From Acidobacteriota bacterium (GTDB lineage: Bacteria; Acidobacteriota; Holophagae; Holophagales; Holophagaceae), in assembly GCA_016195985.1 (NCBI GenBank), contig JACPYP010000019.1:1-64000 (forward strand): a stretch of DNA of 64,000 nt, written 5' to 3'. Below the pieces are notes generated by a model. It saw only the letters and a program-made list of their open reading frames with translations, was not told the origin of the DNA and did not search any database. Positions 59,710 to 62,212 of this stretch are shown one piece after another; the first letter of the stretch is position 1; every line of letters begins with the position of its first letter. Position numbers and translations under genes: made by a program.

Positions 59710-59935
59710 TTATTTTTTGATGATGCTAAATTAAATATAAAATAACTGTTTTTAACATTAATACCACCACCCAAAGATACGGCGGCATTGATTTTATGAT
59801 TCCTGCAATTGAATTCGATTTGAACGTTTATTGCCCATTGGCCATCTGCGAAAACAGGGTTTGCGCAGATGAATTCGACTTCGAGGCCAGTCGATTATCC
59901 CTTTCTCCTGCGGGTCCAGGCCGGACCGCCCTCAG

Positions 59936-59970
59936 GAGAAAGGCCGGCCCAGAATGGGCCGGCCTTTCTC
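59936..59970 (-). terminator. Terminator of the EF-G-like gene
   Basis: A perfect 15-bp stem (59936-59950 with 59956-59970) with a 5-base loop, 40 bases past the stop of the minus-strand EF-G-like gene. The T-rich tail is within the stem, so some uncertainty on efficiency. Confidence 0.8.
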
Positions 59971-60009
59971 AGACGGATGGAAGATGCGGCTCGAATCGAT
60001 CCAGTCGGA

Positions 60010-62049
60010 TCAGGCCGGCGCCTTGGTCTGCTTCCGCGCTTCGACCACCTTGTCGGCGTCGCGGCCGACGAGTTCCTGCAGGTGGTGGAAGGCCCAGGTG
60101 AACGAACCCACGCCCATGGTGAGGCTGCGCAGTTCCACCACCACGTCGCCCATTTCCGCCTGGGGGATGTAGGCGGATACCACGTCCCAGCCATTCCAAC
60201 CGGCCCGCGCGTCGAAGCCCAGGACCTGGCCTCCGCGCCGTCCGGTGACGAGGCGCTGCGCCTTGGGCGTGAACTCGCTGGGCACACAGATGTGCACTTC
60301 GCAGATGGGCTCCAGCAGCACCGGATGGCAGACGGCGCCGGCCTCGTTCATGCCGATGCGGGCGGCGGTCTTGAAGGCCATGTCGGAGCTGTCCACGGTG
60401 TGGTAGCTGCCGTCCACCAGGGCCACGTAGATGTCCACCACGGGGAAGCCCAGGGGCCCGCGCTTCATCCAATCCACGATGCCGTGCTCCACGGCACCGA
60501 AGAAGTTCTTGGGCACCACGCCCCCCACGATCTTCTCTTCGAACTCGAAGCCTTCGCCGCGGCCCCGGGGCTTCACTTCCAGCCACACGTCGCCGAACTG
60601 GCCGTGGCCTCCGGTCTGATGCTTGTGGCGGCCGTGGACCTTCGCCGGCTTGGTGAAGGTTTCGCGGTAGGGAACCATGGGCGGATGATGCTCCACATCC
60701 AGGCCGAAGCGGCTCTTGAGGCGGTCGAGCGCGCACTTGAGATGGACCTCGCCCTGGCCCCAGAGGATGCGCTCCTGGGTTTCGGCGTTCTGCTCCACCT
60801 TCAGCGAAGCATCCTCTTCGCAGAGGCGCTGCAGCGCCAGGGACAGCTTCACGTCGTCGCCGCTCTTGGTGGTGTGCAGGCTCAGGGCCAGCATGGGCTG
60901 CAGCGGCTCCGGCCAGGCCAGCCCCACCTTGGCGGTAGGCGTGAGGCCTTCGCTCGTATGCACGTCATCCATGCGGCCCAGGGCCACCACTTCCCCCACC
61001 GTGGCCTTCTGCTGCTTGATCTGCTGCGAACCGAACAGCCTGTTGACGCCGCTCACGCGGCTGCCCGCAAGGGAGGAGCCATCGGCCACTTCGCCGCGCC
61101 AGACGCGCGAGATGCTCAGCTTGCCCACATGCTGGGCATGGACAGTCTTGAACACCTGCACCAGCGTCTCCTTGCCCTCAGGAATGCCCAGGCGCGCGGC
61201 CGTGGCAGGCGCATGCGGCGCTTCGTCGCAGAGGGCCTGGAAAAGACGGCGGACGCCGGCATCCTTGTCGGCGGAACCGAAGAAGACCGGCACCAAAAGG
61301 TCGTCCTGCACATCCTTGGCGAGATCCTCGGCCACCTCCTCCAGGGGGGGCGCCACGTCGCTGAGCAGCTCCTCCATCAAGTGGTCGTCGAAATCCGCCA
61401 GCTTCTCCAGCATGAGCTGCCGGGCCTCGTGCTCCTCGGGCAGGACCGATTCAGGCAGCTGAATCAGGTCGGCGTCTTTGCCCGCTTCGTACTTGTAGGC
61501 GTGCTCGCTGATGAGATCCACGTAGCCCGTGATCTGGTCGCCTTCCCGGATGGGGATCTCCACCAGCACCAGGGGGCGCTCGGAGACCACCTGAAGGGCG
61601 TTCAGCACGTCCTTGATCTTCCCGGCGCTGCCCGCAGCCTCCATCTTGTTGATGAACAGGACGTGGGGGACCTTGTGGTCGTCCAGGAATTTCAGCGTGG
61701 GCGCCACCATGAGGGCGCGGCCCGGATCCGGATCCACCACCACGACGGCGATGTCGGCGGCCATGAGGGCGTGGGCGGTCTCCTGGCCGAATTCCACGGA
61801 TCCGGGGCAATCGATGAGGGTCCAGACCTGGTTCTGGTAGGTGCAAGCCGCCAGGCTGGATTCCACACTCATCTGGCGGGCCTTGGCCTCCATGGAGGCG
61901 TCGCCGACGGTGTTCCCCTCCTTGACGGAGCCCTTGCGCGGCAGGGCGCCTGCCACGAAGAGAAGGCTCTCCATCAAGGAGGTCTTTCCGGAGAGGTAGG
62001 GACCCACGATGGCCGCTACCCGTGGAGTTGACTGAGAATTTCCGCTCAC
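60010..62049 (-). CDS. Elongation factor G-like translational GTPase
   Basis: A 679-residue protein of the EF-G fold, of the diverged EF-G-like lineage rather than the canonical fusA. G1 is GPYLSGKT (16-23). The G3 motif reads DCPGS (80-84) instead of DxPGH, so the catalytic His is Ser, and G4 reads NKME (134-137) instead of NKxD. Later domains are kept: ILWGQGEVHLKCALDRL, HGRHKHQTGGHGQFGDVWLEV, FFGAVEHGIVDWM, GRRGGQVLGF. It may act on ribosomes with altered GTPase use. The GTG at 62049 has AGGGGG upstream; an open frame extends further without support. Confidence 0.88.
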   Translation of the reverse strand: MSGNSQSTPRVAAIVGPYLSGKTSLMESLLFVAGALPRKGSVKEGNTVGDASMEAKARQMSVESSLAACTYQNQVWTLIDCPGSVEFGQETAHALMAADIAVVVVDPDPGRALMVAPTLKFLDDHKVPHVLFINKMEAAGSAGKIKDVLNALQVVSERPLVLVEIPIREGDQITGYVDLISEHAYKYEAGKDADLIQLPESVLPEEHEARQLMLEKLADFDDHLMEELLSDVAPPLEEVAEDLAKDVQDDLLVPVFFGSADKDAGVRRLFQALCDEAPHAPATAARLGIPEGKETLVQVFKTVHAQHVGKLSISRVWRGEVADGSSLAGSRVSGVNRLFGSQQIKQQKATVGEVVALGRMDDVHTSEGLTPTAKVGLAWPEPLQPMLALSLHTTKSGDDVKLSLALQRLCEEDASLKVEQNAETQERILWGQGEVHLKCALDRLKSRFGLDVEHHPPMVPYRETFTKPAKVHGRHKHQTGGHGQFGDVWLEVKPRGRGEGFEFEEKIVGGVVPKNFFGAVEHGIVDWMKRGPLGFPVVDIYVALVDGSYHTVDSSDMAFKTAARIGMNEAGAVCHPVLLEPICEVHICVPSEFTPKAQRLVTGRRGGQVLGFDARAGWNGWDVVSAYIPQAEMGDVVVELRSLTMGVGSFTWAFHHLQELVGRDADKVVEARKQTKAPA

Positions 62050-62121
62050 AGTGCCCCCTGATTGTCTGGTTCCGATGTGGACCGCCCCAAGTGTTCCGAG
62101 CTTGTCACACCCTGGCAACAC

Positions 62122-62149
62122 GAAAAAAAGCCGCCCTAGAAAAGGCGGC
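62122..62149 (-). terminator. Rho-independent terminator after the FadB-like gene
   Basis: A 6-bp GCCGCC stem (62130-62135 with 62144-62149) followed on the minus strand by a run of seven T. It lies 64 bases past the stop at 62213. Confidence 0.88.
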
Positions 62150-62212
62150 ATAAGTCACAAATCCTTAAGGCGTTGCGAAACCCGGCGAGGCATTCACCGC
62201 GGTTGGCGGTTT

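Follow-up and report, generated by a model that had tools for sequence, protein, structure and literature searches.

Replacement of the catalytic histidine of a translational GTPase by serine has a described precedent in IF2, where the His-to-Ser protein bound GTP (Kd 19 compared with 10 μM) and was reported not to hydrolyse it either with or without ribosomes (PMC7037019). The IF2 H301S change is reported to be dominant lethal, and a non-hydrolysing factor may therefore block ribosomes unless it leaves them easily. In Bacteroides, EF-G2 is a second EF-G beside a canonical one, and a citing paper describes it as lacking GTPase activity and enabling translation without GTP. For the EF-G2 of Thermus thermophilus, whose G3 and G4 motifs are DAPGY and TKLD, ribosome-dependent GTPase activity has been reported (PMC3832671), together with an intrinsic GTPase activity higher than that of EF-G (PMC3150367). 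For the EF-G2 of Mycobacterium smegmatis, with DTPGY and TKLD, no ribosome-dependent activity was observed according to PMC3832671. Since these two DxPGY proteins are the subject of opposite reports, loss of the histidine is not decisive by itself.

EFG II proteins, of which Bacteroides EF-G2 is a distant member, are widespread, and a 2015 survey (PMC4342817) described their role as unknown. The available text of Margus et al. 2011 (PMC3150367) gives R/HxMS/GV as the G2 pattern of an alphaproteobacterial/cyanobacterial sub-subgroup; for EFG II it describes a P-loop in which Gly replaces Ala and Leu replaces Thr at specific positions, and it calls a G4 motif of NKxD conserved. A literature search, mostly by title and in a limited collection, found no GTPase study of the alphaproteobacterial/Holophagaceae branch considered here. 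FusA2, an EF-G, is listed in the extracellular proteome of R. etli (PMC9855851), in a passage that does not state which EF-G copy is meant, and PMC2912261 and PMC4941405 concern, in their available text, canonical EF-G.

The gene and its predicted fold

The window, by which we mean the whole 64,000-nucleotide stretch of DNA analysed, contains an EF-G-like gene, and the position that a preliminary description had given for it proved correct.

60010..62049, minus strand: EFG II gene, 679 amino acids, from a GTG start (62049) to the stop codon (60010)
62059-62054, minus strand: ribosome-binding site AGGGGG, read from the sequence, preceding the GTG

An in-frame ATG at 62151 offers an alternative, longer start. 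It is unlikely to be used, because a terminator-like hairpin (62130-62149) has its foot there and the GTG has a ribosome-binding site in front of it; relatives keep both the GTG start and an AGGAGG-like site. An antisense open frame of 720 amino acids (59869-62031, plus strand) runs across the whole gene, as expected for GC-rich coding DNA. Similar antisense frames run through the EF-G gene at 16 other loci, 10 of them Geothrix-type and six others.

Pfam matches cover the GTP-binding domain and EF-G domains III, IV and V, and domain II is covered by a full-length NCBIfam match and by a whole-chain AlphaFold2 model. This model, made with an alignment of 35 sequences that we chose, has a mean pLDDT of 90.9 and a pTM of 0.86. 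In Foldseek it matches T. thermophilus EF-G2 best and canonical EF-Gs almost as well, and VIA-align of the model with ribosome-bound EF-G gave Z values of up to 46.9. The gene is thus predicted to encode a complete EF-G fold. The DCPGS and NKME motifs of the preliminary description were confirmed in the sequence, and G1 and domains II–V are recognisable, as it had stated.

Family assignment and phylogeny

The best-fitting family model, over the full length of the protein, is NCBIfam NF009379 (alphaproteobacterial/cyanobacterial EFG II), with a score of 983 bits compared with a cut-off of 513. NF009891 (PRK13351.1-1, likewise named elongation factor G) also scores above its cut-off, more narrowly, at 637.8 compared with 597 bits. 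Scores lie below the cut-off for canonical EF-G (TIGR00484, 402.4 compared with 659.4 bits), Bacteroides-type EF-G2 (NF058620, 327.6 compared with 1000), the tetracycline ribosomal protection proteins (tet_protect, 206.5 compared with 775), and LepA, BipA and RF3 (37.1, 59.5 and 106.9 compared with 533.9, 757.3 and 473, respectively).

Two trees placed the protein consistently. In a tree of 100 rows it falls within a 68-row alpha-type EFG II clade, and in a mixture-model tree of 43 rows within a 27-row alpha-type clade, each with SH-aLRT 100; both are quick trees made without bootstrap, from sets containing no cyanobacterial sequence. The 100 rows are what remained of 132 after removal of 32 Geothrix-type rows, one of which was the window's own protein again, and the relatives were gathered as the best 80 of 177.

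On these grounds the window protein belongs, as judged from its sequence, to the alphaproteobacterial/cyanobacterial type of EFG II. It shares with the sub-subgroup of PMC3150367 and NF009379 the G2 pattern (RQMSV fits R/HxMS/GV), the EFG II-specific P-loop residues (Gly16 and Leu25, both present in GPYLSGKTSL), the full-length model match and the position in the tree. It differs in its host, Holophagaceae (Acidobacteriota) lying outside the groups named in the available text of PMC3150367, and in the Glu of its G4 motif, NKME, where that text calls NKxD conserved in EFG II. As G4 departs from NKxD in 16 of the 68 alpha-type rows, however, NKxD does not define the branch. Two features of a canonical EF-G are absent: there is no catalytic His after DxPG, and RQMSV stands in place of RGITI.

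Sequences from Holophagaceae and Myxococcota and those labelled as deltaproteobacterial form one 32-row clade (support 99), which adjoins a mostly Rhodospirillales group (89 for the join). The simplest reading of this arrangement would be horizontal entry into the Holophagaceae from the alphaproteobacterial side, a direction that we infer.

Two placements stand apart. The copy in one Holophagaceae genus (L137) falls apart from the other Holophagaceae and beside a sequence from a deltaproteobacterial MAG (L115), which suggests more than one transfer. A MAG labelled Stygiobacter (Ignavibacteriota) has a copy (L087) nested among Magnetospirillum sequences, which would reflect either contamination or a recent transfer.

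Nucleotide-site motifs and their conservation

The motifs of the nucleotide site and of the domain IV tip are located as follows.

61981..62004, minus strand: G1/P-loop GPYLSGKT, amino acids 16-23, read from the sequence
61864..61878, minus strand: G2/switch I RQMSV, amino acids 58-62, with Ser replacing the usual Thr, read from the sequence; alphaproteobacterial/cyanobacterial EFG II pattern
61798..61812, minus strand: G3 DCPGS, amino acids 80-84, with Ser at the place of the catalytic His of canonical EF-G, read from the sequence
61639..61650, minus strand: G4 NKME, amino acids 134-137, with Glu replacing the guanine-reading Asp, read from the sequence
61270..61278, minus strand: G5 GSA, amino acids 258-260, read from the sequence
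60589..60612, minus strand: domain IV tip loop GGHGQFGD, amino acids 480-487, read from the sequence
60385..60414, minus strand: domain IV tip loop DGSYHTVDSS, amino acids 546-555, with His550 present in all 68 alpha-type rows

At the place of the catalytic His, the 68 alpha-type rows have Ser in 62 cases, Asn in four, Ala in one, Pro in one and His in none. The residue preceding the G3 Pro is Cys in 63 rows; in the 35-sequence alignment C81 does not vary and S84 is conserved to at least 90%. At the last G4 position 52 rows have Asp, 15 Glu and one (L094) Asn; the tree requires at least seven changes there, either towards Glu or Asn or in the opposite direction, including a return to Asp inside the Geothrix-type genus. 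The rows that do carry His at G3, 14 in all and none of them alpha-type, all have Asp as the last G4 residue. Among the 25 genomes of the genus, the window's own included, DCPGS is found in every one, and the last G4 residue is Glu in 24 and Asp in one. The Ser is thus, on this sampling, a trait of the branch and not peculiar to one genome, whereas NKxE is a local change, a trait of the Geothrix-type genus at a site that is relaxed in the alpha-type branch. The motifs had previously been treated as peculiar to the window protein, which for G3 does not hold.

The remainder of the nucleotide site varies little. G16, G21, K22, P82, G83, N134 and G258 are invariant in the 68 rows and D80 and A260 are each kept in 67; K135 is present in 65, with Arg in the others, and T23 in 64, with Ser in four. 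From this near-complete conservation, nucleotide binding is probably kept. Switch I Ser61 is found in 60 rows, with Gly in five and Pro in three. At the domain IV tip, G480, G481, G483, D487, H550, V552, D553 and S554 are invariant in all 68 rows, and Q484, a residue that matters for frame maintenance in EF-G, is replaced by Ala in 16 rows and by Glu in two.

A Sphingobium plasmid copy combines G3 DIPGS with G4 NKIE. Three rhizobial copies (L165, L166 and L172, on large replicons) have DVPGN or DAPGP with NRMD, and in the alignment they show a gap through most of switch I, with the P-loop and domain IV kept. The G3 Asp binds magnesium; in one Holophagaceae sequence (L138, genome G307) the motif reads SCPGS, this Asp too having been lost and being now Ser.

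Selection on the gene is purifying, with dN/dS values of 0.04–0.19 between the window gene and 11 orthologues; four comparisons of canonical EF-G gave 0.04–0.24. Using domain borders that we set ourselves, each of the 11 comparisons gave a higher dN for domain I than for domains III and V, with domain IV varying. A pseudogene or a sequencing artefact is ruled out by the presence of DCPGS in all 25 genus genomes together with dN/dS well below 1.

Other translation factors in the same genome

One other EF-G is found in the genome (L001), with DTPGH, NKMD and RGITI. Its gene lies between those of ribosomal proteins S7 and S10 (recognised by eye), which is the str operon arrangement, so that the str-type locus holds the canonical gene and not the one in the window. 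The two proteins are alike in their five-domain architecture and domain IV tip; they differ in the three motifs just given and in gene neighbourhood, and share only 30% identity. EF-Tu, LepA, BipA, RF3 and IF2 are encoded by separate genes, as judged by match, length and motif. Compared with the nine other sequences aligned, the canonical protein also contains nine extra residues between its two switch regions.

Distribution and gene neighbourhood

All 25 genus genomes, including the window's own, have a match to the family model of at least 976 bits. In a search of 396 genomes of the phylum, NF009379-type matches of 889–1002 bits were present in 36 of the 39 listed Holophagaceae genomes; the other three have, at a loose threshold, an EF-G-length match of 484–512 bits, below the cut-off, plus shorter ones. 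Outside the family, six genomes of the phylum match, at only 602–619 bits, and the proteins concerned are different EFG II members, carrying DTPGF, DAPGF or DTPGY. One cyanobacterial control genome matched the family model strongly.

A collection of plasmids contains 182 records with a relative at E up to 1e-80, including 79 from Rhizobium and 77 from Sinorhizobium, and none of these relatives reaches 60% identity. Alphaproteobacterial and other relatives were drawn from these records, which are not taken to show that the window gene is mobile. Comparison of 53 loci, 26 of them Geothrix-type, revealed no conserved partner gene common to the window neighbourhood (48-64 kb) and other lineages, the only frames shared with other lineages being the antisense frames of the EF-G gene itself.

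Putative upstream and downstream control elements

The gene is flanked by the following elements.

62090..62118, minus strand: likely own promoter, TTGCCA (62118-62113), 17 nt, AACACT (62095-62090), 40 nt before the start codon
62130..62149, minus strand: hairpin and T run resembling an intrinsic terminator, lying upstream of the promoter; 28 of 32 regions have the strict form and four have variants
62151..62160, minus strand: conserved box TTGTGACTTA, directly preceding the hairpin; TTGTGACYT in all 32 upstream regions
59936..59970, minus strand: strong hairpin past the stop codon, a possible transcript end, from folding

The upstream comparison used 32 distinct regions, namely the window and 31 Geothrix-type loci among the best 80 of 177 relatives; the remaining loci, for which the same start or enough upstream DNA was not shown, were left out. 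Throughout these regions the order is the same: the TTGTGACYT box, the hairpin and T run, TTGCCA, 17 nt, AACACT, a further 39–41 nt and the start codon. The −35 box is TTGCCA in 31 regions and TTGACA in one, with the 17-nt spacing exact in every case. The arrangement is kept in two loci (L043 and L046) despite dissimilar DNA further upstream, and the strict forms of the promoter element and of the box/hairpin element each occur once in the genome. A consensus promoter scan reported nothing at 62090..62118; by our count the element agrees with the consensus at eight of 12 positions, and the scan demands nine. The upstream region looks like a gene-specific promoter behind a terminator, and the box TTGTGACTTA may be a site for a regulator or may belong to a leader. 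No RNA family reached its gathering threshold in the region.

Downstream, a 51-nt stretch containing the hairpin has a folding energy of −38.4 kcal/mol (z −6.2). It is without a long T run, and a terminator scan did not report the hairpin at 59936..59970.

Comparison with described EF-G2 proteins

The chain in PDB entries 7UVP and 8DMF, the latter titled as B. thetaiotaomicron EF-G2 on the ribosome, has DCPGS and NQLD, and the chain fragment has NCBIfam EFG2_Bacteroid as its best match. The molecule name given in these entries is TetQ, yet the 8DMF title and the family model both indicate Bacteroides EF-G2. A full-length Phocaeicola homologue (L167) likewise has DCPGS and NQLD. The window protein resembles Bacteroides EF-G2 (8DMF) in DCPGS, in having an altered G4, in its EF-G fold (Foldseek TM 0.85 by query) and in accompanying a canonical EF-G in the same cell, but the two are only 26–29% identical, with YGYSV as opposed to RQMSV at G2 and NQLD as opposed to NKME at G4, and the window protein falls short of the NF058620 model. 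It also lacks the insertion in domain IV: 29 alignment columns occupied in the Phocaeicola protein are a gap in the window protein. A region of ∼26 residues in Bacteroides EF-G2, absent from EF-G, is reportedly needed for GTPase-free translocation. In the 43-row tree, Phocaeicola EF-G2 lies outside the alpha-type clade on a long branch, and joining the two was not rejected (p 0.385).

The EF-G2 of T. thermophilus (PDB 1WDT/2DY1) is likewise an EFG II without the catalytic His and is the best Foldseek match, but it has Tyr in place of Ser, TKLD at G4 and a reported ribosome-dependent GTPase. That of M. smegmatis (PDB 9K0Z), which we assume to belong to the actinobacterial EFG II group, is similar in lacking the His and is reported to be without ribosome-dependent GTPase activity, but it differs in DTPGY and TKLD. 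Identity of motif with Bacteroides EF-G2 is a better guide to function than loss of the His alone, although the domain IV insertion is absent.

A possible role for the protein

The reading to which we lean, with confidence that is about evenly divided, is that the window protein is an auxiliary translocase that binds GTP and hydrolyses little or none of it, an EFG II protein most likely acquired horizontally. It would bind GTP (or GDP) and would dock in the ribosomal A site as EF-G does. Hydrolysis would be very slow or nil because Ser stands at the place of the catalytic His; with little or no hydrolysis, the protein would promote slow translocation through binding and domain IV, and would leave the ribosome by slow dissociation. 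The cell could then supplement EF-G with it at low energy cost, as is reported for EF-G2 in Bacteroides. In favour of this, eight of the 68 rows have Gly or Pro in place of the switch I Ser/Thr, and most of switch I is missing from the three rhizobial members, as if hydrolysis were unneeded in the branch; the conserved nucleotide-binding loops and domain IV tip, the purifying selection and the separate canonical EF-G also speak for it. The missing counterpart of the Phocaeicola domain IV insertion counts against it, as do the loss of the G3 Asp itself in L138, the dominant lethality of IF2 H301S and the separation of the Phocaeicola protein from the alpha-type clade in the tree. The slow GTPase proposed in the preliminary description can be upheld by analogy, with the His-to-Ser form of IF2 and with the DCPGS of Bacteroides EF-G2, and is countered by the reported activity of T. 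thermophilus EF-G2, which also lacks the His.

That same activity, in a protein with DAPGY and TKLD (PMC3832671), raises the alternative of a working, ribosome-stimulated GTPase, in which another residue or the ribosome replaces the His, as seems to happen in T. thermophilus EF-G2, so that the protein would translocate in the ordinary way, only more slowly. The invariance of the P-loop Gly and Lys, Pro82, Gly83 and Asn134 in the 68 rows, and of Asp80 in 67 of them, would fit a site that is maintained. We nevertheless consider this rather unlikely: Ser is not Tyr, the IF2 protein with the same substitution is reported not to hydrolyse GTP (PMC7037019), Bacteroides EF-G2, which comes nearest in its motifs, is said to have no GTPase activity, and most of switch I is missing in three rhizobial members.

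It is also conceivable, and in our view unlikely, that the protein occupies or clears the A site outside elongation, in recycling with RRF, in protection of idle ribosomes or in rescue. EF-G paralogues specialised for recycling are reported to exist (mitochondrial EF-G2, Borrelia), and M. smegmatis EF-G2, reported without ribosome-dependent GTPase (PMC3832671), has a 70S-bound structure, to judge by its title. Such a role fits poorly with the domain IV tip, whose His and VDS stretch are invariant in the 68 rows, and none of the neighbouring genes recurs at loci outside the genus. The position of the protein within EFG II argues weakly in the same direction, as no recycling-type (spdEFG2) sequence is named in the set.

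A change of the G4 Asp to Asn switches GTPases to xanthine nucleotides. An altered nucleotide preference, as suggested in the preliminary description, in which the G4 Glu shifts the choice from GTP to, for example, (p)ppGpp or xanthine nucleotides, could draw on the repeated changes at this site and on the Asp of a single genus genome, but it is very improbable, as Glu, which retains the acid, accounts for 15 of the 16 changed rows (Asn being confined to L094), Asp is kept in most of the branch and conservation is almost complete at the other residues that bind the nucleotide.

Extended beyond the window, the reading as an auxiliary translocase with little or no hydrolysis would make DxPGS together with a relaxed G4 the mark of a whole branch of EF-G paralogues that moves ribosomes without GTP hydrolysis and spans Alphaproteobacteria, Myxococcota and Holophagaceae, with Bacteroidota added by convergence or shared descent. 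We put this forward only tentatively, and lean against it. Since the Bacteroides domain IV insertion is absent from the window protein, this protein would have to use a different structural route.

The finding holds up and is of an ordinary kind: the window protein joins a known EF-G subfamily whose biochemistry has hardly been studied. The DCPGS held in common with Bacteroides EF-G2, the one EF-G paralogue said to function without hydrolysing GTP, gives a simple prediction for a large branch that includes cultured Geothrix, Magnetospirillum and Sphingobium. If the prediction is true, slow-growing bacteria could keep their ribosomes moving when GTP is scarce, and, should it apply across the branch, translation without the GTP cost of EF-G would be widespread as a strategy instead of being special to gut Bacteroides. 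If it is wrong, the catalytic histidine of translational GTPases would be replaceable by serine.

A third, EF-G I-type paralogue was seen in three genomes of the same class (L152, L156 and L162, in G030, G026 and G028, respectively), these being the three sequences examined out of seven matches of similar score in that family. Its G domain is canonical, with RGITI, DTPGH and NKMD or NKID, whereas its domain IV tip is degenerate, reading for example AGKNLFAV and DAEMRDDEST; in this respect it is the mirror image of the window protein.
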